DNA from: Acholoe squamosa
Lineage: Eukaryota; Annelida; Polychaeta; Phyllodocida; Polynoidae
Direction: 5' to 3'
DNA: 64,000 nucleotides
NCBI GenBank assembly: GCA_949317995.1
Contig: OX439049.1
Coordinates: forward strand, 64,841,247-64,905,246
A program made the translations under genes and the position numbers. The notes under the pieces were generated by a model. The model worked only from the letters and a program-made list of their open reading frames with translations. It was not told the DNA's origin and ran no database searches. The first letter of the stretch is position 1. Every line of letters starts with the position of its first letter. Shown in pieces: positions 2,483 through 56,529 of the stretch.

Positions 2483-3210
2483 AGAAGTTTACACCAGCTA
2501 GGCCCCACCCAGCTGTGATCAATCCTAGAGAGACGATTGACATTTAGGGTTGGCCTGTAGGTGGGAATGGGGAAGGAGCTTATTCTGGTTGTGCGGTAAC
2601 AGGGGCGGATCCTGTATTTTGGAAACGGGGGGTTTAGCCCTGGGATCTATAACTGCATATACCAAGGGTTATCTGACCGTTACATGTACATGGTGCTGTA
2701 ATTTTTTTTAAGAATAATAAAAAAATGAAATGAAATATTTATATCATAATGTATAGTTTAAAGAATTTCATTATACCATTAGTAAATTCATGGTTATGTG
2801 AATGGGTAATGGGGACAGCCACTCATCTCTCCATAGAGAGTGAAAATGTAGCTCACATATAAGCAAAGGAGTTTCTGCTAAAACTTTTACTGCATTTGAT
2901 AGTTCAAAGTATGACGAATGGGGGTCACATCAAATCAGAGGTGAGCACATGGTGATGGGTTTGATATCAGTAACTTTGTATGTTACAGTTCACCAAGTTA
3001 CCAAAAGCCTGACTGAAATTGTGCACGCTCAAGCTCCAAGCAGTTCCTGTAATTGCATTGTTTTTGATAGGGGATAGGGCTGGTCCCTCAAGAAAGGTTT
3101 TGAAATATTGACGTCAAACTCCCTAGTTTAAGGGGTTTTGGGGCTTTTTGTGGCCTCAGGTGTAAATCTAGAATTTTTAGAAATGTTGTTTAAGGGGGTT
3201 TGGGATATAG
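2483..3210. other. No recognised feature
   Basis: Gene-free DNA between a MITE and the first 39-bp array; nothing I can support. Confidence 0.4.
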
Positions 3211-3678
3211 GGTTAACCATGCCCATTCTTACTGAGAGGAAAGATGAGGGGTTAACCATGCCCATTCTTACTGAGAGGAAAGATGAGGGGTTATCCATGC
3301 CCATTCTTACTGAGAGGAAAGATGAGGGGTTATCCATGCCCATTCTTACTGAGAGGAAAGATGAGGGGTTATCCATGCCCATTCTTACTGAGAGGAAAGA
3401 TGAGGGGTTATCCATGCCCATTCTTACTGAGAGGAAAGATGAGGGGTTAACCATGCCCATTCTTACTGAGAGGAAAGATGAGGGGTTATCCATGCCCATT
3501 CTTACTGAGAGGAAAGATGAGGGGTTATCCATGCCCATTCTTACTGAGAGGAAAGATGAGGGGTTATCCATGCCCATTCTTACTGAGAGGAAAGATGAGG
3601 GGTTATCCATGCCCATTCTTACTGAGAGGAAAGATGAGGGGTTATCCATGCCCATTCTTACTGAGAGGAAAGATAAAG
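3211..3678. repeat. 39-bp minisatellite, array A, 12 copies
   Basis: Twelve near-identical units with the core cccattcttactgagaggaa. Variation is almost only ttaacc against ttatcc. The unit is 13 codons long, so both strands are open, but there is no start context, signal or homology to suggest a protein. Confidence 0.97.
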
Positions 3679-4553: not shown

Positions 4554-4602
4554 AGATATCAGTCACGCGTCATGACATATCCATTAATTACTTGTTCCAT
4601 AT

Positions 4603-5009
4603 ATGCCCACTCTTACTGAGAGGAAAGATAAAGGGTTAAATATACCCATTCTTACTGAGAGGAAAGATAAAGTGTTAAATATACCCATTCTTACTGAGAG
4701 GAAAGATAAAGGGTTAAATATGCCCATTCTTACTGAGAGGAAAGATAAAGGGTTAAATATGCCCATTCTTACTGAGAGGAAAGATAAAGGGTTAAATATA
4801 CCCATTCTTACTGAGAGGAAAGATAAAGGGTTAAATATACTCATTCTTACTGAGAGGAAAGATAAAGGGTTAAATATACCCATTCTTACTGAGAGGAAAG
4901 ATAAAGGGTTAAATATGCCCATTCTTACTGAGAGGAAAGATAAAGGGTTAAATATACCCATTCTTACTGAGAGGAAAGATAAAGGGTTAAATATGCCCAT
5001 TCTTACTGG
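4603..5009. repeat. 39-bp minisatellite, array B, about 10.5 copies
   Basis: Same core as array A (cccattcttactgagaggaa) but with a different fixed linker (gataaagggttaaatata). The two arrays are sisters that homogenised separately. Confidence 0.97.
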
Positions 5010-5434
5010 TTTGTTTTACTGAAAATAAGCATGGTGTACAAGAAGAACATCAAGAATGGTTGTTACATGGCAACTGGGGATTTGTTACAAGTCAAATTTA
5101 GCTCCTAGCATTGCCTCAAGTTCATTTGGAATTTTTCTTTTTGCTTACTTAGGTATCTACACTGTCTAAGCCACCGTCAAATTAATGACAGAATCTTCGT
5201 CCCAAAGTTGCCAGAGATCCGGCCTTATTTTCACAAAGATGTCACTATTTTCACAGATATCCCTTGAATCACCCCACTGCCACCTGGGACTTCTTGTAAA
5301 ATCTACACTGGCTCCATACTATATATGATTATGGTGGTTGACTCTACAGTTTTACGAGGATCTCTGGTAGATTAAACAGTTATTTTTCACAGTGTAGCTA
5401 ACTATGAGAGCTTACAGCTTGACATTAAACCCAT
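5010..5434. other. Gene-free DNA with an interspersed-repeat fragment
   Basis: 5170-5260 matches 22400-22515. No gene seen. Confidence 0.4.
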
Positions 5435-5805
5435 GTCCTTTTGATGGTGGTCTGCCTCTTAGCGAGCGTTATTTCCATGTCCTTTTGGTGGCGGTTTGGC
5501 GAGTGTTATTTCCATGTACTGTTGGTGGCAGTTTTAGCCTGCATTATTTCCATGTCCTTTTGATGGCTCTTAGCGAGCGTTATTTCCATTTACTTTTGGT
5601 GAAGGTTTGCCTCTCGACAGGTGTCATTTCCATGTCCTTTTGATGACAATTTGTCTATTAGTGAGCATTATTTCCATGTCCTATTGGTGGTGTTTTGCCT
5701 CTTAGTGAGCATTATTTCCATGTAGAAATGATGGTTTGCCTTTTGGCAGGCATGCTTTCCATGTACTTTTGATGGTTTGCCTTTTAGCGAGCGTTATTTC
5801 CACAC
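5435..5805. repeat. Degenerate 38-46 bp tandem repeat covering the iGluR C-terminal codons and 3' UTR
   Basis: About nine imperfect copies of a unit with the core gcgttatttccatgt and cttttgatggtttgcc. The unit nearest M4 is coding (VEITLAKRQTIK). The next two supply the remaining tail and stop, and the rest lie 3' of the stop. Unit length is not a fixed multiple of three, so the reading frame shifts between copies. Confidence 0.75.
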
Positions 5806-5978
5806 ATAGAATAACGAGTGCCACCCCCAGACAGCCGATAATGATAGAGTAGAAGAGCTGCATGTGAGAGACAGTGATGATACCCGACTCATAGTTTATG
5901 TTCTGGTTACAGTGGGAGCGCAGGAAGTTCTTCTGTTTCCAGTATTTATACAGACCGTGCTGTGCCATGTACATCAAC
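5702..5978 (-). CDS. iGluR exon 13 (M4, C-terminal tail, stop)
   Basis: Acceptor ttttcaccttcag. Encodes from codon 561 to the stop at 5702-5704. LMYMAQHGLYKYWKQKNF is the helix before M4; M4 is QLFYSIIIGCLGVALVILCV (601-620). The last 30 or so residues come from the degenerate repeat at 5435-5805, and the stop falls inside a repeat unit. Confidence 0.9.
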
Positions 5979-8900
5979 CTGAAGGTGAAAATAAACTGTA
6001 AAGAATAACAGATCATTATCAACAGGAGTGAGGAAGTAACTGCATAGGCTGATGATTTGGGTGGAAAAGTAATTTCCCTCAAAAATCAATCAGGATTCTA
6101 GATGTACTCTCATCCCATAATCTAGCTTATATTTGAAGAAATCATATGCTTTTTGCTGCTTCAATTTGAAGTGCAAGCTATAATTCTACCAATAATTATA
6201 ATAGCCACTGTAAAAAACCTCCACCTGGGCATATTGCACACCCTTTCATGGATCCTCATCAAAAAGCATTTATAGTCTACTATCCCCTTAATATAATGTT
6301 TTCGCATTGTTTGAAACATAATTAAACCAAAGTTGAAATGTTAAGAAAACTGTATGATGTCACTTTAATGCATGATTCCACAGTAAGAATGATATACATA
6401 CTCCTTAGAGAATAATGGTTCATATGGAGAGCCTTTAGGTAGCGCTATGCCATAACCAGATGGTAAATACTCCTCTGGTACAATGCTCCAGTCACACCGT
6501 CCTAACTGGTACAACTGCTGCATGGCACCCGTCTTGTCACCTACAACACAAACATACAGTAACTGGTATACCTGCTGTATGGCACCCGTCTTGTCACCTA
6601 CAATACATACATACAGTAACTGGTACAACTGCTGCACGGCACCCGTCTTGTCACCTACAATACAAACATACAGTAACTGGTACAACTGCTGCACGGCACC
6701 CGTCTTGTCACCTACAACACAAACATACAGTAACTGGTACAACTGCTACACGGCACCCGTCTTGTCACCTACAATACATACATACAGTAACTGGTACAAC
6801 TGCTACATGGCACCCGTCTTGTCACCTACAACACAAACATACAGTAACTGGTACAACTGCTGCACGGCACCCGTCTTGTCACCTACAATACATACATACA
6901 GTAACTGGTACAACTGCTACATGGCACCCGTCTTGTCACCTACAATACAAACATACAGTAACTGGTACAACTGCTACACGGCACCCGTCTTGTCACCTAC
7001 AACACAAACATACAGTAACTGGTACAACTGCTGCACGGCACCCGTCTTGTCACCTACAATACAAACATACAGTAACTGGTACAACTGCTGCATGGCACCC
7101 GTCTTGTCACCTACAATACAAACATACAGTAACTGGTATACCTGCTACATGGCACCCGTCTTGTCACCTACAATACAAACATACAGTAACTGGTATACCT
7201 GCTACATGGCACCCGTCCTGTCACCTACAACACAAACATACAGTAACTGGTATACCTGCTGCATGGCACCCGTCTTGTCACCTACAATACATACATACAG
7301 TAACTGGTACAACTGCTACACAGCACCCGTCTTGTCACCTACAATACATACATACAGTAACTGGTACAACTGCTGCATGGCACCCGTCTTGTCACCTACA
7401 ATACAAACATACAGTAACTGGTACAACTGCTGCATGGCACCCGTCTTGTCACCTACAATACAAACATACAGTAACTGGTACAACTGCTGCACGGCACCCG
7501 TCTTGTCACCTACAATACAAACATACAGTGACTGGTACAACTGCTGCACGGCACCCGTCTTGTCACCTACAATACAAACATACAGTAACTGGTATACCTG
7601 CTGCATGGCACCCGTCTTGTCACCTACAATACATACATACAGTAACTGGTATACCTGCTACATGGCACCCGTCTTGTCACCTACAATACAAACATACAGT
7701 AACTGGTATACCTGCTACATGGCACCCGTCTTGTCACCTACAACACAAACATACAGTAACTGGTACAACTGCTACACGGCACCCGTCTTGTCACCTACAA
7801 TACAAACATACAGTAACTGGTATACCTGCTACATGGCACCCGTCCTGTCACCTACAACACAAACATACAGTAACTGGTACAACTGCTGCACGGCACCCGT
7901 CTTGTCACCTACAATACAAACATACAGTAACTGGTATACCTGCTACATGGCACCCGTCCTGTCACCTACAACACAAACATACAGTAACTGGTACAACTGC
8001 TGCACGGCACCCGTCTTGTCACCTACAATACAAACATACAGTAACTGGTATACCTGCTGCATGGCACCCGTCTTGTCACCTACAATACATACATACAGTA
8101 ACTGGTATACCTGCTACATGGCACCCGTCCTGTCACCTACAATACAAACATACAGTGACTGGTACAACTGCTGCACGGCACCCGTCTTGTCACCTACAAT
8201 ACAAACATACAGTACCTGTTATACCTGCTGCATGGCACCCGTCCTGTCACCTACAACACAAACATACAGTAACTGGTATACCTGCTGCATGGCACCCGTC
8301 TTGTCACCTACAATACATACATACAGTAACTGGTATACCTGCTACATGGCACCCGTCCTGTCACCTACAATACAAACATACAGTGACTGGTACAACTGCT
8401 GCACGGCACCCGTCTTGTCACCTACAATACAAACATACAGTAACTGGTACAACTGCTACATGGCACCCGTTTTGTCACCTACAATACAAACATACAGTAA
8501 CTGGTATACCTGCTGCACGGTACCCGTCTTGTCACCTACAATACAAACATACAGTAACTGGTACAACTGCTGCACGGCACCCGTCTTGTCACCTACAATA
8601 CAAACATACAGTAACTGGTACAACTGCTGCACAGCACCCGTCTTGTCACCTACAACACAAACATACAGTAACTGGTATACCTGCTGCACGGCACCCGTCT
8701 TGTCACCTACAACACAAACATACAGTAACTGGTATACCTGCTACATGGCACCCGTCTTGTCACCTACAATACAAACATACAGTAACTGGTACAACTGCTG
8801 CACGGCACCCGTCTTGTCACCTACATCACAAACATACAGTAACTGGTATACCTCCTACATGGCACCCGTCTTGTCACCTACAATACAAACATACAGTAAC

Positions 8901-11900
8901 TGGTATACCTGCTGCACAGCACCCGTCTTGTCACCTACAACACAAACATACAGTAACTGGTACAACTGCTGCACGGCACCCGTCTTGTCACCTACAATAC
9001 AAACATACAGTAACTGGTATACCTGCTAAATGGCACCCGTCTTGTCACCTACAATACAAACATACAGTAACTGGTACAACTGCTGCACGGCACCCGTCTT
9101 GTCACCTACAATACAAACATACAGTAACTGGTACAACTGCTGCACGGCACCCGTCTTGTCACCTACAATACAAACATACAGTAACTGGTATACCTGCTAC
9201 ACGGCACCCGTCTTGTCACCTACAATACAAACATACAGTAACTGGTACAACTGCTGCACAGCACCCGTCTTGTCACCTACAACACAAACATACAGTACCT
9301 GGTATACCTGCTGCACGGCACCCGTCTTGTCACCTACAATACATACATACAGTAACTGGTATACCTGCTGCATGGCACCCGTCTTGTCACCTACAACACA
9401 AACATACAGTAACTGGTACAACTGCTACACGGCACCCGTCCTGTCACCTACAATACAAACATACAGTAACTGGTACAACTGCTGCACGGCACCCGTCTTG
9501 TCACCTACAATACAAACATACAGTAACTGGTACAACTGCTGCACGGCACCCGTCTTGTCACCTACAACACAAACATACAGTAACTGGTACAACTGCTGCA
9601 CGGCACCCGTCTTGTCACCTACAATACAAACATACAGTACCTGGTATACCTGCTACATGGCACCCGTCTTGTCACCTACAATACAAACATACAGTAACTG
9701 GTACAACTGCTACACGGCACCCGTCTTGTCACCTACAATACAAACATACAGTAACTGGTACAACTGCTACACGGCACCCGTCTTGTCACCTACAATACAA
9801 ACATACAGTAACTGGTACAACTGCTGCACGGCACCCGTCTTGTCACCTACAACACAAACATACAGTACCTGGTATACCTGCTGCACGGCACCCGTCTTGT
9901 CACCTACAATACAAACATACAGTAACTGGTAAACCTGCTGCACGGCACCCGTCTTGTCACCTACATTACAAACATACAGTAACTGGTATACCTGCTACAT
10001 GGCACCCGTCTTGTCACCTACAATACAAACATACAGTAACTGGTAAACCTGCTGCACGGCACCCGTCTTGTCACCTACAATACAAACATAGAGTAACTGG
10101 TACAACTGCTGCACGGCACCCGTCTTGTCACCTACAATTCAAACATACAGTAACTGGTATACCTGCTACATGGCACCCGTCTTGTCACCTACATTACAAA
10201 CATACAGTAACTGGTACAACTGCTACATGGCACCCGTCTTGTCACCTACAATACATTCATACAGTAACTGGTACAACTGCTGCACGGCACCCGTCTTGTC
10301 ACCTACAATACAAACATACAGTAACTGGTACAACTGCTGCACGGCACCCGTTTTGTCACCTACAATACATACATACAGTAAATGGTACAACTGCTGCACG
10401 GCACCCGTCTTGTCACCTACAATACATACATACAGTAACTGGTACAACTGCTGCACAGCACCCGTCTTGTCACCTACAATACATACATACAGTATCTGGT
10501 ACAACTGCTACATGGCACCCGTCTTGTCACCTACAATACAAACATACAGTACCTGGTATACCTGCTGCATGGCACCCGTCTTGTCACCTACAATACATAC
10601 ATACAGTAACTGGTACAACTGCTCCACGGCACCCGTCTTGTCACCTACAATACAAACATACAGTAACTGGTACAACTGCTGCACGGCACCCGTCTTGTCA
10701 CCTACAATACATACATACAGTAACTGGTACAACTGCTGCACAGCACCCGTCTTGTCACCTACAATACAAACATACAGTAACTGGTACAACTGCTGCACGG
10801 CACCCGTCTTGTCACCTACAACACAAACATACAGTAACTGGTATACCTGCTACATGGCACCCGTCTTGTCACCTACAACACAAACATACAGTAACTGGTA
10901 TACCTGCTACATGGCACCCGTCTTGTCACCTACAACACAAACATACAGTAACTGGTATACCTGCTACATGGCACCCATCTTGTCACCTACAACACAAACA
11001 TACAGTAACTGGTACAACTGCTGCACAGCACCCGTCTTGTCACCTACAATACAAACATACAGTAACTGGTACAACTGCTGCACGGCACCCGTCTTGTCAC
11101 CTACAATACAAACATACAGTAACTGGTATACCTGCTGCATGGCACCCGTCTTGTCACCTACAATACATACATACAGTAACTGGTACAACTGCTGCACGGC
11201 ACCCGTCTTGTCACCTACAATGCAAACATACAGTAACTGGTATACCTGCTGCACGGCACCCGTCTTGTCACCTACAATACAAACATACAGTAACTGGTAC
11301 AACTGCTGCACGGCACCCGTCTTGTCACCTACAATACAAACATACAGTAACTGGTACAACTGCTGCACGGCACCCGTCTTGTCACCTACAATACATACAT
11401 ACAGTAACTGGTATACCTGCTACATGGCACCCGTCTTGTCACCTACAATACAAACATACAGTAACTGGTACAACTGCTGCACGGCACCCGTCTTGTCACC
11501 TACAATACAAACATACAGTAACTGGTACAACTGCTGCACGGCACCCGTCTTGTCACCTACAATACAAACATACAGTAACTGGTACAACTGCTGCACGGCA
11601 CCCGTCTTGTCACCTACAATACAAACATACAGTAACTGGTACAACTGCTGCACGGCACCCGTCTTGTCACCTACAATACAAACATACAGTAACTGGTACT
11701 TGTCTCCTGCTAATTTATTAATTTAGATTCCTTTGCCATTACTTAGAAATTGTGAAATTAAGCTCTTTTTCCTATTTTGGGGTTTCTTGTGCTTTTGCCA
11801 CCAGATAGTCTCAAAAATCCCAGCCTGTGATTGGATGAAACCAGTCAGCTGACCAGCCAGCCAGCAGCCAGCACAGCCCTGGGCTGTATATAAGCAGCAG

Positions 11901-14900
11901 ATGTGAGCTGCTCACACTGCAAGGACCTACCCTATCCAGGGACAACTATAGTCTATGCCTCCAGTCCTTCAAGATCTTCAACGCCACCAACAGGAACCTG
12001 CCCTTTCTAGGGACATCTTTAGTCCAGGTTCCTGTCTTCAAGTTCTACTCCTTCAATAGCAGGACTTGCCCTAACCAGGGGTCTAATCTTTAGTCCAGGT
12101 CCTGTTCCCTCATAGACCCTGGCCCTAATTTGGACTGGGGATCAACTTTAGTCCAGGATGTCTATGCCATTTATTTTCCAGGCCAGAAGACATTTTGAAG
12201 ACTCCATGGGCGTACCTTTAATAACCTAATTCAGTCATAGACACTTCATTCACTAATAGATACATTTTCTTGACTCATAGACATTTTATTTCTAATAGGT
12301 ATGCAGCTGTGAGCTGCTCACACTGCAAGGACCTACCCTATCCAGGGACAACTATAGTCTATGCCTTCAGTCCTTCAAGATCTTCAACGCCACCAACAGG
12401 AACCTGACTTCTAGGGACATCTTTAGTTCAGGTTCCTGTTCCTAAATTTCTACAAGTCCACCAACAGGAGCCTGCCCTTTCTAGGGACATCTTTAGTCCA
12501 GGTCCTGTCTTTAAGTTCTACATCTTTAATAACTCCAACAGGACCTGCCCTAACCAGGGGTCTCATCTTTAGTCCAGGTCCTGTTCCCTCATAGAACATG
12601 CCCCTAATTTGGACTGGGGATCAGCTTTAGTCCAGGTTGTCTATGCCATTTATGTCCCAGGCCAGAAGACAATTTGGGTGTACCTTTAATAACTTAATTT
12701 AGTCATAGACAATTTATTCACTAATAGATACATTTTATTCACTAAAAGACATTTTATTCTCTCATAGATATTTATTCCAAATTCTGATAGTCTACCCAAG
12801 CGGCTACCCCTTTATCAAGTGACATTTATTCTGAAACATAGCCTACCCAAGCGGCTATGCCTTTATTAAAGAATTCTCATAACTCTAAATTGGCGGCTGA
12901 CCCTTCATTATTTAGTCACTATTTAACTGTTAACTTTAAGCACTCAATCATTTATCCATTCACAACATCAATGCCATATCTATACATTTTCATCACACAA
13001 TTTATATAATAAAGAGTTGAACTTTATTTGAATTGTTGTCATCTGTTACTGCTAGTGTTAATACCATCCAGTGGTCCAAAACCTATAAGTTACGAGTCAC
13101 ATTTAGAAACCAACAAGAACACAACGAGAAGTTTTTTTTTTTTTTTGATTTTCTGAAAGGTTGTGAAAGTAGAATCAACTCATTATAGGTCCTAGTAATA
13201 AAAAAAATATGATGCCAACCTTTTACGGCAGAGCCAACACCCGAACCCCCAAAAATGGGCCTTTAGCTCCCTGGGTAACAGTGATAAACAGGACACGTCT
13301 GGCTGTGTAATGGTTTTAAGGTTGGTTGCTACTGGTTGAAAATGAGCCCACTGCGCAGGTCTCTGCGCATATAGATTATATTAGTTAGAATGGCACCATA
13401 TTTTGTAGGCACATACTTACATTAGTCATTAATACACACAAGAAATTGCAGGTAATTTTGATGAAGATTAGGCATTTTGTGATGCTTTGAAATTTGTGCA
13501 TATTTACATCTAGACTTAATTTAGATTTTTCTTACTTTCTTTTATGGCTTATATTTATAACCCTCAAATGTTCTAAACGAAATTATGGAAGTGATTATAA
13601 TGCTCAGAATATCCAAGGGTATAGCCTGAAACCCTTTAATATTATAAACGTTGCCATTTTACCCATAATACTTTCGATGACATTGACTATGCTTAGTTCA
13701 GTGTGTAATTTATGCGGTATGGGCTGTCAATGAGATTGACTATGCCTATTTTAGCCCGTAATACATGCGCTATAGGCTGGAATTGAGATTGACTGTGCCT
13801 ATGTTAGCCTGTACTATATGTGCTGTGGGCTGTAAATAAGATTGACTATGCCTACTGTAGTCACCTGTTTTAGCGACGGGTCTTTCAATGAACCCTCAAA
13901 TAAGCGCCAGGGGCACAGTGGGTTTAGAATTGGCACATTATCTATGTCTTGAATAAGCGCCAGTCTAGCACAAGCACCAAGGATGGAGTGGTAATGATCT
14001 AAGTCAACAGCAATTGAAATCTATAAGCCCCGGGCACTTAAGCAGGCCACTACAGTAGTTCAGCATGTAATAAACCTACCTGGTTGTGCTATAGGCTGAG
14101 GACTGTAGATAAGGTTCAGTGTGCCTACTTCACTATATAGTACACCTACCTGCGTGTGCTATAGACTGAGGACTGTAGATAAGGTTCAGTGTGCCTACTT
14201 CACTATATAGTACACCTACCTGCGTGTGCTATAGACTGAGGACTGTTGATAAGGTTCAGTATGCCTACTTCACTATGTAGTACACCTACCTGCGTGTGCT
14301 ATAGGCTGAGGACTGTAGATAAGGTTCAGTGTGCCTACTGCACTATGTAGTACACCTACCTGCGTGTGCTATAGGCTGAGGACTGTAGATAAGGTTCAGT
14401 GTGCCTACTTCACTATGTAGTACACCTACCTGCGTGTGCTATAGGCTGAGGACTGTAGATAAGGTTCAGTATGCCTACTTCACTATATAGTACACCTACC
14501 TGCGTGTGCTATAGGCTGAGGACTGTAGATAAGGTTCAGTGTGCCTACTTCACTATATAGTACACCTACCTATGTGTGCTATAGGCTGAGGACTGTAGAT
14601 AAGGTTCAGTGTGCCTACTTCACTATATAGTACACCTACCTATGTGTGCTATAGGCTGAGGACTGTAGATAAGGTTCAGTGTGCCTACTGCACTATGTAG
14701 TACACCTACCTGCGTGTGCTATAGGCTGAGGACTGTAGATAAGGTTCAGTGTGCCTACTTCACTATGTAGTACACCTACCTGCGTGTGCTATAGGCTGAG
14801 GACTGTAGATAAGGTTCAGTGTGCCTACTGCACTATGTAGTACACCTACCTGCGTGTGCTATAGGCTGAGGACTGTAGATAAGGTTCAGTGTGCCTACTG

Positions 14901-17900
14901 CACTATGTAGTACACCTACCTGCGTGTGCTATAGGCTGAGGACTGTAGATAAGGTTCAGTGTGCCTACTGCACTATGTAGTACACCTACCTGCGTGTGCT
15001 ATAGGCTGAGGACTGTAGATAAGGTTCAGTGTGCCTACTTCACTATGTAGTACACCTACCTGCGTGTGCTATAGGCTGAGGACTGTAGATAAGGTTCAGT
15101 GTGCCTACTTCACTATGTAGTACACCTACCTGCGTGTGCTATAGGCTGAGGACTGTAGATAAGGTTCAGTGTGCCTACTTCACTATGTAGTACACCTACC
15201 TGCGTGTGCTATAGGCTGAGGACTGTTGATAAGGTTCAGTATGCCTACTTCACTGTTCTTTACTGTAGAGTTCTGCGACAACACCTTCTCCCAGAGTCTG
15301 CTAAATACGCCAGTTTTTGCTTCCTGCAGAAGGCAAATAAAAAGAAACACTGACTTTGTATTATAAGACACTGTCAGCAAATTGTATAACATGGTCTCTT
15401 TGGAAGACAATGTTTCCTGAAGTTTGGGGGAGAACTGCAAAGAGTGATCCACATTGAGACCTTGCCCAAACTGGTTTTTGCTGCAAGTCTGCAAGGTACA
15501 CCATGCCTGGACTGGCCTATGTAAAAAGTTTAGAAGAGGGGTACCTTTTCTAGACTGGCCTGTATTTAGAGTTTGGAAGAGGGGTGCCTTTGCCAGAGTG
15601 GCCTGCATTTGGAGTTTGGAAGAACTAAATGAATCATATGTAATGACAAAGAAAGTACCTGTAAAAGTGTCATGTGCACGCTGCCCAATGGCACCTGTAA
15701 TGTGTATACCGTGTCCTCGGCCAGGTCCTGCAGTGTCCTGAATGGTAGTTTGATGTTTTTGGTGGATAGAGCAGCTACTAGGTTACCAGTGTATACGGTA
15801 ACTACAACAAGTGATATCAGCCATAGACTGGCCCACACTGAGCGCACTGCACGGCCTACAAGCACCGACTGCTCTCCTATAATCATTACAATCAAATCGT
15901 TATTGACAATGCTGTATCTATAAAGCTATCATGCAGAATTGCCTTATTTTCTAACAAGATGGTTGCTATGCAACCACTAGCTGCAGCAATTAGGGAATGG
16001 TACCAGTGGAATCCCTGAGATCAATTTAGTAGGGGAAGGCAAACCGAAATTACCACCCAAATAACTTTTGCTAAGCATTTTCAATGAAATCAGCTGGTTG
16101 CTATGCAACTACTATCCATAGATACTAGCCAATGATACCATTGAGATCCCTAGATCACTATTATTAATGGTAAATGAATCTTAAAATATTGTCTGAGAAC
16201 CCCTTTAATAAAATAAACTGGTTTCTATGTTAACACCACTAAAATCCCTGGTACCTGTTTATAGGGACTAAGTAAACATTGGTTCCCTTTTACCTGGAGT
16301 GAAACTATCTGTTGCTAAGTACTGCTGGTCAAAATTGGCTGGTTGCTAGGCAACCATTGATAATTGAAATAGCTCAAAGGTAGCAACACCCCATTCACAT
16401 GGAATTTCATTGTTTGATAGTATATGTGTTTGAGACAATCTAATGTTCAGATTTTCCGATAAAAATATTTGATGAAATGTTTAATATCATGAATCAGAAA
16501 CAAAACTCCAGTGGGTCTAAATAGAACAGAGTCAAAAGGAAAAACTGAATACCAAATCTATTCTTTTGAATCCTATTTGAAATAAAATAGCAAGCCCATA
16601 TCTTTTATCCCTCAAGTAGGGAAAATTCAGAACAATCATCAACGAAGGCAGACCTGGCAAGTCTAGTACTCATTCATTCAGTGCTAATGGGCTGCCACAC
16701 TAGGCATCCATTAGTACAGCCAGATAATAGAGGAACATGAATCTGGAAGCATCATGCACCTTAAAAGGTAAAAGGAAAACTTACCTTTAAGAAGTGTTGT
16801 TGAGAACATGGCTAACATGATCTCTATGAATGTATAGGACAAGGACAACCCTGGGGAGGCCGTGTGGAGCTTTGTAGACACTTTGTGAAAGAACCAGGTG
16901 AAAACTGTAGCCACAGCAAAACAGGCCAAAGTCACTAGCCATACCTGAATCAAATAGTACTGCCTTTGTAAGAAGTATGCAATAAATAATACTCTAAATG
17001 GATTTTATTGAGAAAAGTAATAATTTACTTACTATTGCAGCATGAAAAGTTGTAAAATTATAAGTAGTTTCAACATGCACACATATATCATCATAAATAA
17101 CTGCCCCACTGCTTATAGATTCTGAGGGGCCATTATATCAGCCCTCATACAAGACATGGTCTTTTTTAAGGTCTCCTGTTCAATGTTTAATATTGAGAAG
17201 CTTACATGTACATTAAATTTCATGTCAGCGTATCGTTACCTCGTTCTGAAATGACTTGTAGAAGTATGAATCCTTCCTGTCCCATGTCCTTATGATGATA
17301 GCCGAGGGCTCCTCCCAGAATGGGAAGGTGAAGTCAATGACCTCTGACCTCGCCTTACTGATGGTGAGCCCCGTCAGTACCAAGTCAGCCTGCTGTGCAT
17401 CAGAAAAACCTCTCTCATAAAAAAAGTCTCTCATATGTTGTAAAATTATTCTGTGGTATGTTAGAAAAACCTTACTTAACTTCTAAATCAGTGTCTTGTA
17501 TGTTTTGAAATTAGTCTGCAGTATGTCAGAAACTTTACTTAAGTTTTGAATCAGTGTCTTGTATGTTAAAGAATTAGCCTGCAGTATGTCAAAAAATTTA
17601 CTTCTGTTTTGAATCAGATTGCTGATGTCATGATCTTCTTAATCATCTTAATCCTTGATTAACTCCCAAATCAGCTTGCTGCATGTCATGAAAATCATTC
17701 CCCTTCTATTTATCCAAAGAAAACATGTATATTATATGAACATACCTTTCTAATGATCATTCCAACCAAGCCGTTCCACTTATGTGTTTTCTCATCCCGG
17801 GCACCCCATGCCCCGTCAATGGAGCCCACAATGGTATAACTAGGATATGAAAGTGAAAGTTGACTCAGATGATGAGAGTACACTGTTGTTCAAGGCATTT

Positions 17901-20900
17901 ACCATGAGGGGAACAGTCCACAATTTCTCCAATGTTGAGAAATTTGTATATATGTCCACCTTGCTAAATCACCTGCACTGAATTAGTGTATCATGATAAC
18001 CAAAAGGCATGCTTCACCAATGTATTAGGTTTAGCGGAAAGGACTAATACCTGGCAACTCACCAGTCGAGTCACCAGTTGACCCACCAGTCAAGTCAGCA
18101 TTGAACTCACCAGTTGACTCAACCTTTGAGGGATTAGCAGAACCTGACCTGCCATTCTGCCATTAAAAACATGTTCTTAACCATGTAAAGTTGGATAGGG
18201 GATTAGTGTATTATAAATAACATCGTTCGTCATGATACATGGATGCAACCCTGGCAGCTAACCTGCCAGGGCCGCATTTATGTCAACACGATGCAACAAT
18301 CACCAGCACTCCATTGGTGCATCATGTTGTTCATTGGTCAGCATGCTTTAAAGGGATAATAATATGTCTTCACCTAGTAGGGTAAATTCAGGTAAAGTTG
18401 GACACCAGGTAAAGTGGAACAACTAAGTTATGACTTTCCAAACCAAATTTTCTCTACTATGAGTAATGATTTTTCATTGTAAAGAAATATATGTTTTATC
18501 ACTCTGTTATGCCTGTTTCATCCTCAACCTGAAGAGTAATTATGCATCCAAAATGTTATTATCATCTTGCCATTAATGGCATTGACAGTGATGTGGTACC
18601 ATTGTAGACCTGTTCCTTGTAGGCTTAATTGACTTACTTGAAGTGGAAGATTTCCACCAGAGCGTGGAGGATGTCACCACAGTAACCCTTCATCTTCAAT
18701 GTGCCATTCACCATGTAGGGAATGACAAATGGGAAAGTCTGAAAGTACAATTATAGAGATAAAGGATTTGTATATTATGTCACTTTTATCTTGTAAACTT
18801 TCCTTCCTCAAATCAAAACATTACTCTTGGTTAAAAACAACAGTTTGATATTTACATAGATTATCTGAAGGTTCACAATTTATAAGGGGATGACATTAGG
18901 GTGGGCAACCTAAAGTGAAGCCTTATTTTGGGTCCTAATTGGTTGATATATTTTTCATAGGTTTGGAACAAAAGTTGTTTAGTGGCTATAACTAGGTGCA
19001 CACATATATATAAAGGTTGTACACAGGAGTTCTGCAGTTATTACAAGGTGCACCCCTTCTGATAGTCGGTTGTTACTGATTAAGTGTGTAAAAGTTATCC
19101 TTACCGGTTCAGCAGCTATAACTAGGTGCACCCCTTCTAGAGCCTGGTTGTCACTCAGTGTGTAGTTGTTTATAGCTCTGTATGTACATGATGTAGACAT
19201 GGTCCCCACGTGTATGGACGACATAATCCTGGGCAGGTAGATGGTCACAGTACTTGGAATGCAGCAACCTGCACACTGTAATAAAGGTATATTTTTCATG
19301 GAAAAAAGGGGGCACAATTCTATTTCAGAGTAAATCTTAGGGTCCAAAAAATGCAAATAACTGTTAAGTTCTGGCAAAAAGGATGGGGTGCCGGGCGCAC
19401 GCCCCCATTTAGATCGACAACTGGCGTCAGTTTCTAAGATGCAGTAGCGCAGCATGTGCATTGGTTAACATGACTCATCAATAAAGCGCTATCTAGGGGA
19501 TATATGACACCTATTGACGCACACATTGGGACTAACACCAACAAGTGTGTCAATGTGTTACTATGGGGGTGTGTGTACACATAGCACTATGATATACATA
19601 GTGTAGGGGCCAGCTCTGCCTTACAAAGCCAGCTGCCCCATTCCGGGTGTACCAGCCTAGCCACCTGGCACCTGGTGGTAGCTGCCCCTATGTGTGTGTC
19701 ATACTGATCCACGTGTAGGTGGAAGGTAGAGAATGTCAGACGGGGAAGTAGCTCAGTGGTAGCGCTTCCACCTGCAGGTTGGAGGGTCCCAGGTTCGACT
19801 CCCAGTTTCTCCAGGACATTTTCTGCTGACCTCTACAATTGTATAGCAATAGAAATATGTATAGAATTATCATGTATATAAAGATAAAAGATTTCCATAT
19901 ACAACAACTGATGATAATCAACACTGGTCTCCTCCTAAAAAAAAAGATAATTTGAGACATGTAAATATTATAATATCATCTTATTTAGTACACTCACCAT
20001 GTTTTTAATAGCAGCCATGGGTTTATAACTAATGGTGACATAGTGTTGAATAAGACTCGATGGTTTGAGTAGTTCAGCACTAACATGGATGGCAATATCC
20101 TGATACAAGATGATGTTAACCCGCGGTACTTCTAACTGTGATACGTTATGCTTTCTGTAGTTCAAAGAAGCCAGCATCTGCAATGTTAACATGTATTCAA
20201 TCTGAAACTGACTGTTGCAGTGACAAAGTATTAACAACTAATTAACAAGTCTTGAATAAAGAACAGCAAATTTAGACTGTTTTTGAATAAGCACCAACTT
20301 TGTGCTACAGTTTTATGCTATTTTTGAATATTCTTGCGTATTACTTACTACCTATGGCCTGAAGTTTGACAAGCCGATATTGATCATGTAGTTTCTGATA
20401 CAGTAGCCTACATGCGTAGATGAAGATGGCCAGAACTGAGGCATTAATGTACCATGGCAACCAATGGGTTTGATGCATTCGTGCATCAACAGACAGAAGT
20501 GTTCATGACTGTACTCACATTTAATGTTTGTCTGATATCACAGTCAATAGCTATGTTTCTGTATATTGTACTTGTACCCAGGAAGGCCTTCAGACTCTGT
20601 AGTGACGTCATCACAGGCATGGTGTCACAGTTATAGTGTACATGGGTCATGTGACCCCGGTTATGGAGGGGGACTTTAAGGTCTCCTATAATAAAATTAA
20701 TATAATAGTGAAGAGTAGCATAGCTTTATATTTCTAATGAGATGGGCAATTGTCATGTGATAATCCATAATAGTTGTCTTTCAATCAAATCATAATAAAC
20801 ATCCTCATGACATATGATACAACATTTGGAAATTGACAAACAAACAGACAAACCTCCTATAAAAGCTTATATTGGGAATATTAATTTATCACCAAATTCA

Positions 20901-29534: not shown

Positions 29535-29762
29535 CTAATATCCACCATAGTATCCACTGTAGTATCTGCCATATCCACCATAGCCATATCCATGTCCATA
29601 CCAATGTCCATAGGAGTATCTGTCATGGCCGGTCACACCAAGAGGAGTGCCGGGGATGCCGTCCTTGCTGGCAGTTCCGGTTTGAGATCCTATGTGGTTG
29701 GCCACATTGTTGACATGAAGCTGACGATCGGCATTGTGCCTGTTGTCATGTGCCTCATAGCC
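29535..29762 (-). pseudogene. Truncated paralogue of the Gly/Tyr-rich secreted protein
   Basis: Reading on the minus strand from 29762 to the TAG at 29535-29537: GYEAHDNRHNADRQL, then KDGIPGTPLGVTGHDRY, then a GHGYGYGGYGRYY-type tail. It matches the gene at 33389-33703 across the middle (KDG-PGTP-GVTGHDRY) and in style at the tail. No signal peptide exon or acceptor lies directly upstream. An in-frame stop precedes it, and a MITE-family fragment begins close by. A missed distant 5' exon cannot be excluded. Confidence 0.75.
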
Positions 29763-29847
29763 AATGTAAGGGAATGCAGAATTCCATGTTTATTAGGTGT
29801 ACATGTCATTATGCACCACTACTCTGCTCTGCCAAAGATCATAGTGT

Positions 29848-31314: not shown

Positions 31315-33270
31315 AACGGTCGCTAGCATGGGCATGCATCATGTCCATTGGTTGTCATGATGCACCAATTAAGTGCTGAGCAGCCTGCTCACAAGCACTC
31401 CGTTGGTGCATCCAGTTGAGTGCTTTAAGACCATAGGGTCAGCATGATGCATGAATGCATTCCGGGCTAGTTACTCTTCACAGCTGCTGCATTCAGGTGT
31501 CATGATAACTGTTGGATATAGTGCATGAAATGGTAAATTTGCTGTCACAATGGATGAATTCTATTCCAGGTGGAAGCACTGTTTGGTACTTTGCCTCATT
31601 CTTCGGGAGTGTATCACATGATGCAAGTATGCAGACCTGGCCAATAGACTGCTCCAGTGATGCGAAGGTTCAGCATGATGCAAGAATGCCCCCCTAGCCA
31701 ATAGGCTAACCAGTGCTGCATTCATGTCATAATTAGGGTCAGCATGATGCAAGAATGTAGCCCTGGCCAATAGGCTAACCAGTGCTGCATTCATGTCAAT
31801 ATTAGGGTCAGCATGATGCAAGAATGTAGCCCTGGCTAATAGGCTAACCAGTGCTGCATTCATGTCAATATTAGGGTCAGCATGATGCAAGAATGTAGCC
31901 CTGGCTAATAGGCTAACCAGTGCTGCATTCATGTCAATATTAGGGTCAGCATGATGCAAGAATGTAGCCCTGGCTAATAGGCTAACCAGTGCTGCATTCA
32001 TGTCAATATTAGGGTCAGCATGGTGCAAGAATGCAGCCCTGGCCAATAGGCTAACCAGTGCTGCATTCATGTCAATATTAGGGTCAGCATGATGCAAGAA
32101 TGTAGCCCTGGCTAATAGGCTAACCAGTGCTGCATTCATGTCAATATTAGGGTCAGCATGATGCAAGAATGTAGCCCTGGCCAATAGGCTAACCAGTGCT
32201 GCATTCATGTCAATATTAGGGTCAGCATGATGCAAGAATGTAGCCCTGGCTAATAGGCTAACCAGTGCTGCATTCATGTCATTATTAGGGTCAGCATGAT
32301 GCAAGAATGTAGCCCTGGCCAATAGGCTAACCAGTGCTGCATTCATGTCAATATTAGGGTCAGCATGATGCAAGAATGCAGCCCTGGCTAATAGGCTAAC
32401 CAGTGCTGCATTCATGTCATTATTAGGGTCAGCATGATGCAAGAATGCCGCCCTGGCCAATAGGCTAACCAGTGCTGCATTCATGTCAATATTAGGGTCA
32501 GCATGGTGCAAGAATGCAGCCCTGGCTAATAGGCTAACCAGTGCTGCATTCATGTCATTATTAGGGTCAGCATGGTGCAAGAATGCAGCCCTGGCTAATA
32601 GGCTAACCAGTGCTGCATTCATGTCATTATTAGGGTCAGCATGATGCAAGAATGTAGCCCTGGCTAATAGGCTAACCAGTGCTGCATTCATGTCATTATT
32701 AGGGTCAGCATGATGCAAGAATGCCACCCTGGCCAATAGGTTAACCAGTGCTGCATTCATGTCAATATTAGGGTCAGCATGGTGCAAGAATGCAGCCCTG
32801 GCTAATAGGCTAACCAGTGCTGCATTCATGTCATTATTAGGGTCAGCATGATGCAAGAATGCAGCCCTGGCTAATAGGCTAACCCGTGCTGCATTCATGT
32901 CATTATTAGGGTCAGCATGATGCAAGAATGCCCCCCTAGCCAATAGGCTAACCAGTGCTGCATTCATGTCAATATTAGGGTCAGCATGATGCAAGAATGC
33001 AGCCCTGGCTAATAGGCTAACCAGTGCTGCATTCATGTCATTATTAGGGTCAGCATGATGCAAGAATGCACCCCTGGCTAATAGGCTAACCCGTGCTGCA
33101 TTCATGTCATTATTAGGGTCAGCATGATGGAAGAATGCACCCCTGGCTAATAGGCTAACCCGTGCTGCATTCATGTTAATATTAGGGTCAGCATGATGCT
33201 AGAATGCAGCCCTGGCTAATAGACCAGTCAGTGGTGCATTCATGCAAACCAATGGATATAATTCACTATG
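31315..33270. mobile_element. MITE-derived sequence expanded into a 69-bp array
   Basis: Flanking parts (31330-31500 and 33190-33250) carry the MITE vocabulary (gcatgatgcatgaatgca, cattggttgtcatgatgcac), and the array unit itself is made of the same words. The likeliest reading is a TTAA-family MITE whose centre was amplified. Confidence 0.6.
31660..33230. repeat. 69-bp minisatellite, 22 copies
   Basis: gtgctgcattcatg recurs from 31713 to 33162 in exact 69-bp steps (21 intervals). Variation is at a few sites (atgatg/atggtg, aatatt/attatt, gtagcc/gcagcc). The minus strand is open for more than 500 codons only because 69 is a multiple of three; there is no independent sign of coding. Confidence 0.95.
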
Positions 33271-33388: not shown

Positions 33389-33703
33389 CTAATAGTATCC
33401 ACCATAGTTACCGCCATATCCGCCATAGCCGTGCCCATTGTAGTGGCCACCATAACCTCCGTATCCACCTCCGTATCCTCCATGTCCATATCCACCATAC
33501 CCACGTCCATGTCCATAGAAGTATCTGTCATGGCCGGTCACACCATAGGGAGTCCCAGGGACACCGTCCTTGTAGGCAGTGCCAGTTCCAGCTCCAATAC
33601 TATTGGCAATAGCGTTAACACGCTGCTGGCCATGGGCGTAACCATAGCCAGAGGCCTCGGTGAGGCAGAAGGCAACAGCGGCAAGAAGGATGATACGGAT
33701 CAT
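33389..33703 (-). CDS. Secreted Gly/Tyr-rich (shell-matrix- or structural-like) protein, 104 residues
   Basis: One uninterrupted frame from ATG to TAG. Signal peptide MIRIILLAAVAFCLTEASG (1-19). Middle segment QQRVNAIANSIGAGTGTAYK, then KDGVPGTPYGVTGHDRY. C-terminal half is GYGGYGG/GHGGY repeats ending GGYY. A TATA box at 33753-33759 stands about 50 bp upstream of the ATG, as in compact, highly expressed genes. A strong donor (TTAG|gtaagt at 33380) follows the stop by 8 nt, so a 3' UTR intron is possible. Family knowledge: short secreted proteins with Gly/Tyr repeats are common in invertebrate shell, byssus, cuticle or silk-like materials. I do not recognise a specific family. A diverged copy lies at 29535-29762. 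Confidence 0.85.
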   Translation of the reverse strand: MIRIILLAAVAFCLTEASGYGYAHGQQRVNAIANSIGAGTGTAYKDGVPGTPYGVTGHDRYFYGHGRGYGGYGHGGYGGGYGGYGGHYNGHGYGGYGGNYGGYY

Positions 33704-33752
33704 TTTGAGAGCTGTGTGAGAGAATGTGTGACATAGTGAGTGTTACACCGTC

Positions 33753-35226: not shown

Positions 35227-38200
35227 TACTATAGTCTAGATAAATAAAGCCCCACATGTAAGGTGTCTAGTGAGGTACTATAGTCTAGATAAGCCCCACA
35301 TGTAAGGTGCCCAGTGAGGTACTATAGTCTAGATAAATAAAGCCCCACATGTGAGGTGCCTAGTGAGGTAATATAGTCTAGATAAGCCCCACATGTAAGG
35401 TGCCTAGTGAGGTACTATAGTCTAGATAAGCCCCACATGTAAGGTGCCCAGTGAGGTACTATAGTCTAGATAAATAAAGCCCCACATGTGAGGTGCCTAG
35501 TGAGGTAATATAGTCTAGATAAGCCCCACATGTAAGGTGCCTAGTGAGGTACTATAGTCTAGATAAGCCCCACATGTAAGGTGCCTAGTGAGGTACTATA
35601 GTCTAGATAAGCCCCACATGTAATGTGCCTAGTGATGTACTATAGTCTAGATAAGCCCCACATGTAATGTGCCTAGTGAGGTACTATAGTCTAGATAAGC
35701 CCCACATGTAATGTGCCTAGTGAGGTACTATAGTCTAGATAAGCCCCACATGTAAGGTGTCTAGTGAGGTAATATAGTCTAGATAAGCCCCACATGTAAG
35801 GTGCCTAGTGAGGTACTATAGTCTAGATAAATAAAGCCCCACATGTAAGGTGCCCAGTGAGGTACTATAGTCTAGATAAATAAAGCCCCACATGTAAGGT
35901 GCCTAGTGAGGTACTATAGTCTAGATAAGCCCCACATGTAAGGTGCCCAGTGAGGTACTATAGTCTAGATAAGCCCCACATGTAAGGTGCCCAGTGAGGT
36001 ACTATAGTCTAGATAAGCCCCACATGTAAGGTGCCCAGTGAGGTACTATAGTCTAGATAAATAAAGCCCCACATGTAAGGTGTCTAGTGAGGTACTATAG
36101 TCTAGATAAGCCCCACATGTAAGGTGCCTAGTGAGGTACTATAGTCTAGATAAGCCCCACATGTAAGGTGTCTAGTGAGGTACTATAGTCTAGATAAGTC
36201 CCACATGTAAGGTGCCTAGTGAGGTACTATAGTCTAGATAAGCCCCACATGTAAGGTGCCTAGTGAGGTACTATAGTCTAGATAAGCCCCACATGTAAGG
36301 TGCCTAGTGAGGTACTATAGTCTAGATAAGCCCCACATGTAAGGTGCCCAGTGAGGTACTATAGTCTAGATAAGCCCCACATGTAAGGTGTCTAGTGAGG
36401 TACTATAGTCTAGATAAATAAAGCCCCACATGTAAGGTGTCTAGTGAGGTACTATAGTCTAGATAAGCCCCACATGTAAGGTGCCCAGTGAGGTACTATA
36501 GTCTAGATAAGCCCCACATGTAAGGTGTCTAGTGAGGTACTATAGTCTAGATAAGCCCCACATGTAAGGTGCCCAGTGAGGTACTATAGTCTAGATAAAT
36601 AAAGCCCCACATGTGAGGTGCCTAGTGAGGTACTATAGTCTAGATAAATAAAGCCCCACATGTAAGGTGCCTAGTGAGGTACTATAGTCTAGATAAGCCC
36701 CACATGTAAGGTGCCTAGTGAGGTAATATAGTCTAGATAAGCCCCACATGTAAGGTGTCTAGTGAGGTACTATAGTCTAGATAAGCCCCACATGTAATGT
36801 GACTAGTGAGGTACTATAGTCTAGATAAGCCCCACATGTAAGGTGCCCAGTGAGGTACTATAGTCTAGATAAGCCCCACATGTAAGGTGCCTAGTGAGGT
36901 ACTATAGTCTAGATAAGCCCCACATGTAAGGTGCCTAGTGAGGTACTATAGTCTAGATAAGCCCCACATGTAAGGTGCCTAGTGAGGTACTATAGTCTAG
37001 ATAAGCCCCACATGTAAGGTGCCTAGTGAGGTACTATAGTCTAGATAAGCCCCACATGTAAGGTGCCCAGTGAGGTACTATAGTCTAGATAAGAAAGGCC
37101 ACACATGTAATTTGCCTAGTTAGGTACTATAGTCTAGATAAGCCCCACATGTAAGGTGCCTAGTGAGGTACTATAGTCTAGATAAATAAAGCCCCACATG
37201 TGAGGTGCCTAGTGAGGTACTATAGTCTAGATAAATAAAGCCCCACATGTAAGGTGCCTAGTGAGGTACTATAGTCTAGATAAGCCCCACATGTAAGGTG
37301 CCTAGTGAGGTACTATAGTCTAGATAAGAAAAGCCCCACATGTAAGGTGCCCAGTGAGGTACTATAGTCTAGATAAGCCCCACATGTAAGATGCCTAGTG
37401 AGGTACTATAGTCTAGATAAATAAAGCCCCACATGTAAGGTGCCTAGTGAGGTACTATAGTCTAGATAAGCCCCACATGTAAGGTGCCTAGTGAGGTACT
37501 ATAGTCTAGATAAGCCCCACATGTAAGATGCCTAGTGAGGTACTATAGTCTAGATAAATAAAGCCCCACATGTAAGGTGCCCAGTGAGGTACTATAGTCT
37601 AGATAAGCCCCACATGTAAGGTGCCCAGTGAGGTACTATAGTCTAGATAAGTCCCACATGTAAGGTGCCAAGTGAGTTAGTATAGTCTACATAAGCCCCA
37701 CATGTAAGGTGTCTAGTGAGGTACTATAGTCTAGATAAATAAAGCCCCACATGTAAGGTGCCTAGTGAGGTACTATAGTCTAGATAAGCCCCACATGTAA
37801 TGTGACTAGTGAGGTACTATAGTCTAGATAAGCCCCACATGTAAGGTGCCCAGTGAGGTACTATAGTCTAGATAAGCCCCACATGTAAGGTGCCCAGTGA
37901 GGTACTATAGTCTAGATAAGCCCCACATGTAATGTGACTAGTGAGGTACTATAGTCTAGATAAGCCCCACATGTAATGTGACTAGTGAGGTACTATAGTC
38001 TAGATAAGTCCCACATGTAAGGTGCCCAGTGAGGTACTATAGTCTAGATAAGCCCCACACATAATGTGACTAGTGAGGTACTATAGTCTAGATAAGCCCC
38101 ACATGTAAGGTGCCCAGTGAGGTACTATAGTCTAGATAAATAAAGCCCCACATGTGAGGTGCCTAGTTAGGTACTATAGTCTAGATAAATAAAGCCCCAC

Positions 38201-44200: not shown

Positions 44201-45430
44201 TCTAGATAAGCCCCACATGTAAGGTGCCCAGTGAGGTACTATAGTCTAGATAAGCCCCACATGTAAGATGCCTAGTGAGGTACTATAGTCTAGATAAGCC
44301 CCACATGTAAGGTGTCTAGTGAGGTACTATAGTCTAGATAAGCCCCACATGTAAGATGCCTAGTGAGGTACTATAGTCTAGATAAGCCCCACATGTAAGG
44401 TGCCTAGTGAGGTACTATAGTCTAGATAAGCCCCACATGTAATGTGACTAGTGAGGTACTATAGTCTAGATAAGCCCCACATGTAAGGTGCCTAGTGAGG
44501 TACTATAGTCTAGATAAGCCCCACATGTAATGTGCCCAGTGAGGTACTATAGTCTAGATAAGCCCCACATGTAAGGTGCCCAGTGAGATAGTATAGTCTA
44601 GATAAGCCCCACATGTAAGGTGCCCAGTGAGGTAGTATAGTCTAGATAAGCCCCACATGAAAGGTGCCCAGTGAGGTACTATAGTCTAGATAAGCCCCAC
44701 ATGTAAGGTGCCCAGTGAGGTACTATAGTCTAGATAAGCCCCACATGTAAGGTGCCCAGTGAGGTACTATAGTCTAGATAAGCCCCACATGTAAGGTGCC
44801 TAGTGAGGTACTATAGTCTAGATAAGCCCCACATGTAATGTGACTAGTGAGGTACTATAGTCTAGATAAGCCCCACATGTAAGGTGTCTAGTGAGGTACT
44901 ATAGTCTAGATAAGAAAAGCCCCACATGTAAGGTGCCTAGTGAGGTACTATAGTCTAGATAAGCCCCACATGTAATGTGACTAGTGAGGTACTATAGTCT
45001 AGATAAGCCCCACATGTAAGGTGCCTAGTGAGGTACTATAGTCTAGATAAGCCCCACATGTAAGATGCCTAGTGAGGTACTATAGTCTAGATAAGCCCCA
45101 CATGTAAGGTGCCCAGTGAGGTACTATAGTCTAGATAAGCCCCACATGTAAGGTGCCAAGTGAGTTAGTATAGTCTAGATAAGTCCCACATGTAAGATGC
45201 CTAGTGAGGTACTATAGTCTAGATAAGCCCCACATGTAAGGTGCCCAGTGAGGTACTATAGTCTAGATAAGCCCCACATGTAAGGTGCCAAGTGAGGTAC
45301 TATAGTCTAGATAAGCCCCACATGTAAGGTGCCCAGTGAGGTACTATAGTCTAGATAAGCCCCACATGTAATGTGACTAGTGAGGTACTATAGTCTAGAT
45401 AAGCCCCACATGTAAGGTGCCCAGTGAGGT
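35227..45430. repeat. 10.2-kb minisatellite of a 44/49-bp unit, roughly 225 copies
   Basis: Unit cccacatgtaaggtgcctag + tgaggtactatagtctagat + aag. The basic period is 44 bp; two 5-bp-longer forms exist (ataaataaag and ataagaaaag junctions). Recurrent variants (tgcccag, tgtctag, tgactag, aagtccc, gttagtatag) are arranged in blocks, some copied as higher-order units. The founder lies in the interspersed repeat at its left edge (ttactatagtctagataaat near 35220). Non-coding; stops in all frames. Confidence 0.97.
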
Positions 45431-46140
45431 ATGGGACATGAACAGTTAGTGTCTGATCCATGACATCACAGGCACCTGAATCAAGGCTAAACTCCCAACT
45501 ATGAGAGCGCTAGGATCGACGGCAACCCTCTCTATAAGGCTCAGTGTGGGATCATCCCTACATATAACCTGTGCCTTACACTCTGTTACCCTACATTGAG
45601 TCCCATGTTCCTTAAATCTATTGCTGATGTGAAAGGAGTTTTAATAGGTTGATTTTATTATGTGCCTGGTAAGCCTGTGCCAAAAGCTCTGCAGCTTAAA
45701 CCTTTAAAGGTCTCTGATACATTAATGCATCCTTGGTCACTGGGTCCTTTGGAATTTCTTTTCTGCAGCCCCAGACAGAGTCTTGCAAAAACAAAAATAC
45801 CCAAGAATAATTTTATTCAGATAATGAAAAAAGAAAGTTTCATGACGAAATGAGTGCTTCATAGTGTAAGAAATGAGGGCTGGTTGATGCATAAAATGTT
45901 GATTGATTGATTGATTTGTGTTTTACAGCACTTTAGCGGCACTAAGTGGCTATCCCGTGCTTCACAGGTTGATAATTTAACAGAGGAATGTGTCAGTGCC
46001 CGCGCATATGTGCACCACACACATCCTGAGGGGATAGGAAAGAGGAGATATAGACCCTTTTAAGTGGGCTAGGGAAGCCCGTGCATAAAATGTGTGCTTC
46101 ATGCTACACATAATGAGTTTTCAGATGTACGAAATAATTG
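45431..46140. repeat. Gene-free DNA with a SINE-like interspersed repeat (45895-46085)
   Basis: The part from gattgattgattgatttgtg through gtgttttacagc to ctagggaagcccg looks like a dispersed repeat. A TGATT-rich head followed by 'tgtgttttac' is a pattern I associate with repeats of marine invertebrates; this is inference. A MITE-like scrap is near 45700. Confidence 0.4.
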
Positions 46141-48608: not shown

Positions 48609-48789
48609 TACGTGGTCACAACCGCATTTCTTGTTAAATCAGCCATGCTCCACAAGCCTGATAAATTTATTAAGATCATAAATCTGTGTACCACAACTTG
48701 TATTATACCTGATTGCTGGGAGATAGCCACAGTAACTCCCCTACCTAAGGGGGGGGTTCCATCTAATGTATCGAATTATCGCCCCATTA
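48609..48789 (+). pseudogene. LINE A ORF2, N-terminal RT segment
   Basis: Encodes CIIPDCWEIATVTPLPKGG, then SNYRPI, the typical start of LINE RT, cut at 'YRPI' by the TA-flanked element. Confidence 0.85.
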
Positions 48790-52476: not shown

Positions 52477-52483
52477 TAAACGT

Positions 52484-56520: not shown

Positions 56521-56529
56521 TTGGTAATC

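Follow-up and report, generated by a model that had tools for sequence, protein, structure and literature searches.

Minisatellite-like duplications of intron/exon boundaries, termed mirages, have been described in amphioxus (PMC3087553; PMC3902484). In the available portions of these reports the affected genes are Adh3, troponin C, the globins BflGb6 and BflGb9, and PGBD5, the last being added by PMC3902484, which also names troponin C, and the duplications occur at both 5′ and 3′ boundaries. According to the same portions, the BflGb6 mirage has 3 and 6 units of 150-160 bp (PMC3087553), the PGBD5 mirages have 2-7 copies at two different exons (PMC3902484), and the unit size in Adh3 is quoted as 10-72 bp (PMC3087553; PMC3902484). 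They also report that mirages do not disturb splicing and that regular mRNA is made (PMC3087553; PMC3902484). All of the mirages named in the literature compared, as far as these portions extend, are cephalochordate. In the present study, an intron of an ionotropic glutamate receptor (iGluR) gene is described from the polynoid annelid Acholoe squamosa, in which both splice junctions are amplified into tandem arrays. The gene is on the minus strand of a window of 64,000 nt (assembly GCA_949317995.1, contig OX439049.1, positions 64,841,247 to 64,905,246; 41.1 % GC, no N), and all coordinates given here are those of this window.

As in the amphioxus mirages, the tandem unit spans the boundary, at the 5′ or the 3′ side, and AG/GT is present in many copies. 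The iGluR intron differs in being amplified at both ends, with 17 and 91 copies. The arrays are an extreme instance of an already named phenomenon and not a new kind; compared with the mirage cases, and within the available portions of those reports, it is the copy number and the involvement of both ends of one intron that are new. Among the literature matches listed, there was no intron with both ends amplified and there were no such copy numbers, the subscription literature being mostly outside reach. A further amphioxus comparison is VCBP3, in which introns contain splice sites and extensive identity to the adjacent coding exons (PMC2632668); unlike the iGluR arrays, the VCBP3 copies are described, in the part of the report available, as complete or partial exons and not as tandem arrays.

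Tandem arrays at both ends of one receptor intron

The amplified intron lies between exons 11 and 12 of the receptor gene, the numbers 10-13 being those used in a first-pass annotation of the sequence. It is ~8.7 kb in length (~8,660 nt from the exon coordinates, which give ~335 and ~423 nt for the introns on either side), and it has a donor array at its 5′ end and an acceptor array at its 3′ end (Table 1). The acceptor array contains 91 full copies, from 11689 down to 6503, each of exactly 57 nt with zero indels; the copy count from Tandem Repeats Finder (TRF) is 91.2. Each of the 17 donor copies is exactly 70 nt. The first-pass annotation had reported 17 donor copies (54 nt of exon and 16 nt of intron) and 91 acceptor copies (19 nt of intron and 38 nt of exon) on a single intron, and this is confirmed with the exact unit lengths; the upper end of the array region, which it placed at 15260, is at 15253.

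Table 1. Coordinates of the receptor exons and of the arrays associated with them

Feature	Coordinates	Strand	Basis
iGluR ligand-binding S1 start exon	18638..18738	-	Frame and splice phase fit
iGluR ligand-binding S1 exon	17746..17839	-	PF10613 on its open reading frame, below gathering score; joined frame
iGluR ligand-binding S1 exon	17240..17392	-	PF10613 on its open reading frame; joined frame
iGluR exon, M1 and pore region	16785..16944	-	By position and by eye; joined frame
iGluR exon 10, M3 helix	15659..15876	-	Lig_chan on joined exon 10-13 product
iGluR exon 11, 124 nt	15200..15323	-	3′-terminal 54 nt belong to donor copy 1; GluA1 alignment
iGluR exon 12, 139 nt	6402..6540	-	5′-terminal 38 nt belong to acceptor copy 91
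iGluR exon 13, last transmembrane helix M4	5705..5978	-	M4 by eye and alignment; exon start at 5978
Donor array, 17 x 70 nt	14064..15253	-	Unit is 54 nt of exon 11 end and 16 nt of intron start
Acceptor array, 91 x 57 nt and a 10-nt partial copy	6503..11699	-	Unit is 19 nt of intron end and 38 nt of exon 12 start
Older degenerate array from exon 11 end, ~53-nt unit	13677..13854	-	TRF; alignment to donor unit
Mid-intron locally duplicated stretch between the arrays, transposon-like by eye	11905..12777		Self-similarity scores
Diverged 41-44-nt array starting in coding end of exon 13	5431..5802	-	TRF; score 66, 0/1000 shuffles

The splice dinucleotides are retained throughout. AG/GT is present in all 108 copies, as TAG/GT in every one of the 91 acceptors, and as CAG/GT in 15 and TAG/GT in two of the 17 donors; the earlier observation that AGGT lies across the junction in both units therefore holds for each copy of each array. 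Recursive splice sites consist of an acceptor directly followed by a donor, and the iGluR acceptor copies are similar in this respect, most of them reading TAG/GTGACA. The would-be donor, however, fits the consensus as it is generally given, MAG/GURAGU, at only six of nine positions.

The acceptor copies have a mean pairwise difference of 3.43 in 57 nt, with 48 distinct variants among the 91, and the donor copies 2.65 in 70 nt, with 10 distinct variants among the 17. Similarity between neighbouring donor copies is above average (lag-1 mean difference 1.81 versus 2.65). At the intron side, the end copy of the donor array is its most diverged (five differences from the consensus), whereas that of the acceptor array is identical to the consensus. 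The 10-nt sequence GTACCAGTTA is present at either end of the acceptor array, and is either a partial copy or a short direct repeat where the first duplication formed.

An assembly artefact is very improbable as the source of the arrays or of their copy numbers. There is precedent for such errors in amphioxus, where the numbers of PGBD5 mirage copies differ between two assembly versions (2 versus 7 and 3 versus 6; PMC3902484) and the BflGb6 mirage seems to be mis-assembled (PMC3087553), in both cases according to the available portions of the reports. In contrast to what looping or stuttering in an assembly would give, the 48 acceptor variants in the 91 copies form a mosaic in which few blocks recur. 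There is little reason to doubt that the arrays exist, although their exact copy number may be open to doubt.

Exon edges, reading frames, and stops

The part of the iGluR encoded in the window comprises the ligand-binding and channel regions. Eight exons were placed, from 18738 downward on the minus strand; each of the seven intervening introns is GT-AG, and when joined the exons make a single open frame. The joined product of exons 10-13 (230 residues) has a match to Pfam Lig_chan (E 5.7e-9) and to 143 distinct PDB sequences at E <= 0.001, the top match being GluA1 (E 2.9e-16, residues 8-225) and the best 60 of the 143 being AMPA- and kainate-type receptors. Two of the three upstream iGluR open reading frames (ORFs) tested match Pfam Lig_chan-Glu_bd (PF10613), one of them below the gathering score, and the third, containing M1, has no Pfam match on its own. 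The open frame of exon 13 closes at ~5705, within the 44-nt array, this being the end of the frame and not an established exon end.

The alignment with GluA1 crosses the junction of exons 11 and 12 with just one one-residue gap nearby, and therefore the conserved protein includes no array unit. Judged by homology and frame, the predicted true exon edges are the outermost copies of both arrays. This was the placement proposed in the first-pass annotation, and it agrees with the GluA1 alignment, the joined frame, and the translation of donor/acceptor pairs; the splice phases, which had been said to fit, do so across all eight exons and through the exon 11/12 junction of the alignment.

All 1,547 possible donor/acceptor pairs (17 x 91) were translated, and four keep the frame open. 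These all combine donor 1 with either the outermost acceptor or the one lying one, two, or three copies inside it, giving the native product and products with 19, 38, and 57 additional amino acids, respectively. From inner donors 2-5, translation stops after IAHAGRCTT in each case; every inner donor meets this same stop, which is made at the boundary between copies 1 and 2, five codons on. The other 87 of the 91 acceptors, those at least four copies in, reach a stop inside the array within 7-140 residues.

An in-frame stop is present in 33 of the 91 acceptor copies (31 TAG, one TGA, and one TAA), so the acceptor array is not maintained as coding sequence, and its coding use in the exon frame was ruled out. 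Likewise, the antisense frame over the acceptor array, although open for 1,731 of 1,732 codons, was set aside as a coding signal, because, with a 57-nt unit that is a multiple of three, a single unit lacking stops tends to be enough for an open frame.

Splicing at a real rate to the acceptors one to three copies inside the outermost, which would generate receptor length variants with 19, 38, or 57 extra residues, is distinctly unlikely. The unit length, a multiple of three, keeps these variants in phase, the frame stays open from each of the three inner acceptors closest to the outermost, and TAG/GT stands in all acceptor copies with the ten surrounding columns invariant. However, the insert would sit in S2 of the ligand-binding domain, where the only nearby change relative to GluA1 is the one-residue gap; in addition, stops are found in over a third of the acceptor copies (33/91), and without exception a stop follows from any acceptor at least four copies in.

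At the donor site there is no sign of maintenance, as 48 of 70 windows are equally or less variable. There is also no signal that the donor and acceptor units pair as RNA, with 58 of 200 shuffles as stable or more so, or of strong folding of the units themselves (65/100 and 54/100 shuffles as stable or more so).

Relationship between the two units

A common origin of the donor and acceptor arrays was ruled out, since the alignment score of the two units, 15, was reached by 817 of 1,000 shuffles. This result bears on intron gain, to which the arrays had been linked in the first-pass annotation. Tandem duplication of AGGT-containing exon sequence is one proposed route to a new intron (Rogers; Gao and Lynch; cited in the available part of PMC3087553). 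That the iGluR intron was born in this way, as in the Rogers or Zhuo type of model, and that the arrays are its remnants, is extremely improbable. AGGT does span the junction in every copy of both arrays, as this route would have it, but the route derives both splice sites from one segment, whereas here neither the 5′ nor the 3′ unit is a copy of the other; the proposed link is therefore not upheld. Human introns derived from tandem arrays, with both splice sites inside one array, were reportedly described by Zhuo et al. in 2007. The minisatellite units of these introns contain splice sites, as do those found here, but the donor and acceptor arrays of the iGluR intron are unrelated.

Chance and recurrence of junction amplification

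TRF tandem arrays make up 38 % of the window. The probability of arrays falling on junctions was assessed after the arrays had been seen, and is thus post hoc. The 10 TRF arrays in 5431-18760 were used, with overlapping rows merged and each array cut to one seed unit, and the seeds were placed randomly outside pure exon, the end of exon 13 being set arbitrarily at 5760. A 24-nt array at 18056-18114 is among the 10. Under random placement, 0.47-0.83 junction-straddling seeds are expected, with a probability of 0.07-0.20 for two or more; with the array at the coding end of exon 13 included, the probability of three or more is 0.008-0.041. For two junctions drawn at random from 14, the chance of their belonging to one intron is 1/13. 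Two junction-straddling arrays are just mildly unexpected in this window, and single mirages are nearly expected because the DNA is so rich in minisatellites.

Homology links the donor unit with the degenerate array of ~53-nt units deeper in the intron (score 50, reached by 0/1000 shuffles). The donor boundary of exon 11 has therefore been amplified at least twice, the 53-nt array being the older. The suggestion in the first-pass annotation that the junctions may be prone to amplification has some support from this boundary, which has given two arrays of different age and unit length (70 and 53 nt), but a significant duplicate is present within 600 nt beside just two of the 15 iGluR junctions tested. 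A diverged 41-44-nt array also begins where the coding part of exon 13 ends (score 66, reached by 0/1000 shuffles), with no splice donor demonstrable there. A 63-nt array at 17434-17617, just upstream of the acceptor of another receptor exon, was by eye a good candidate for a further mirage and failed, its scores being reached by 7/100 and 134/1000 shuffles.

Mirage-type minisatellites as the probable explanation

It is highly probable that both arrays are mirage-type minisatellites, of which the outermost copies are spliced and the extra copies are passive. This is supported by units that span the boundary (54 + 16 and 19 + 38 nt), by AG/GT in all copies, and by the coincidence of the end copy with the exon edge. 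At each end of the intron, a short tandem duplication would by chance have included the exon-intron junction, and would then have grown by slippage or unequal exchange. Such an array would be tolerated, since splicing from the outermost donor to the outermost acceptor would yield the original mRNA as before, further copies being just more intron. The possibility that multiple splice sites are tolerated had been raised before, and it is sustained because the outermost pair still gives the native frame, as well as by the published mirages, so far as the available portions describe their splicing. No function of their own is proposed for the arrays.

Both exons concerned are short (124 and 139 nt) and have introns of more than 300 nt on both sides, a setting in which exon definition would favour the outermost copies, because these lie the shortest distance apart across each exon. 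The available part of PMC9225289 reports a preference for whichever of the competing sites in long introns has the shorter distance across the exon, and minigenes whose 5′ sites are identical show it too. Mis-splicing to inner sites would meet stops, and the transcripts may then be removed by nonsense-mediated decay. From homology and frame, the splice sites used are probably the outermost.

Several observations weigh against this explanation. In the same part of PMC9225289, the cross-exon preference is partial: the upstream 5′ site is chosen in 60 % of strength-matched events overall, and 3′ site events overall favour the upstream site, which here is an inner copy. Some use of inner acceptors among the 91 near-identical copies is therefore plausible. 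The ten columns around the acceptor site are invariant, and only two of 57 ten-column windows are, this one included, which is at most a mild sign that inner acceptors are maintained. Neighbouring acceptor copies are no more alike than average (lag-1 3.44 versus 3.43), so the turnover of the acceptor array is not simple local slippage. In addition, the paired arrangement on one intron has a probability of 0.006-0.015 under random seeding, again post hoc, and this hints at a junction bias that the passive model does not explain. The earlier view that the two arrays are hard to explain by chance is thus retained to the extent that their pairing exceeds chance, and it is tempered by the abundance of minisatellites in the window, which makes the case less extreme.

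A bolder reading, which we consider unlikely, is that the 91 acceptors act as a competition ladder, with the outermost mostly used and spill into the next three. Allele-specific length or order of the array would then tune the +19, +38, and +57 forms and the amount of decayed transcript, and some intron junctions would be minisatellite hot spots, the donor having been amplified at least twice.

Other repeats and features of the window

Two further arrays are rich in AGGT on the plus strand, with no exon tied to either: a 44-nt unit in ~227 copies at 35247-45431 (10 kb; 1.7 AGGT per unit), and a 62-nt unit in ~34 copies at 54405-56525 (1.9 per unit). Downstream of the last placed exon of the receptor are two arrays ~0.9 kb apart (3210-3674 and 4601-5008) with a common 39-nt unit type, which on the minus strand is TTTCCTCTCAGTAAGA and contains overlapping acceptor-like and donor-like signals. 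The 69-nt array at 31666-33244 is by eye like a dispersed TGCATCATGC-type repeat found elsewhere in the window; no exon is tied to this array.

ORFs of the long interspersed nuclear element (LINE) type of retrotransposon (Pfam Exo_endo_phos_2 and RVT_1) are present at 47093-51692 and 52472-53598, with minisatellites between them, the second being by eye a related fragment. Between these LINE pieces is an ORF of 215 aa (51829-52473) whose match to NADAR is weak and falls below the gathering score. The LINE protein had 43 pattern matches in a prokaryotic contig collection and eight in a viral one, of which tblastn confirmed none; a DNA pattern of a repeat family had no match in either collection and the acceptor junction pattern none in the viral one, negatives of little weight given the prokaryotic and viral content of the collections. 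The minus strand also has a pair of related ORFs rich in Gly and Tyr (33392-33742 and 29538-29789), which match no Pfam family and one of which has, by eye, a signal-peptide-like start. The tRNA-Cys-like sequence at 19742-19813 may be a gene, a short interspersed nuclear element, or a pseudogene.

Significance

The copy numbers of the iGluR arrays are by far the largest among the mirage cases with numbers compared, as given in the available portions of those reports. The intron offers a natural test of how splicing selects one among many near-identical sites, and the read-out is simple, since the length or the stop that results from each wrong splice choice can be predicted. The intron is also relevant to the question of whether tandem duplication is unusually frequent at exon-intron junctions.

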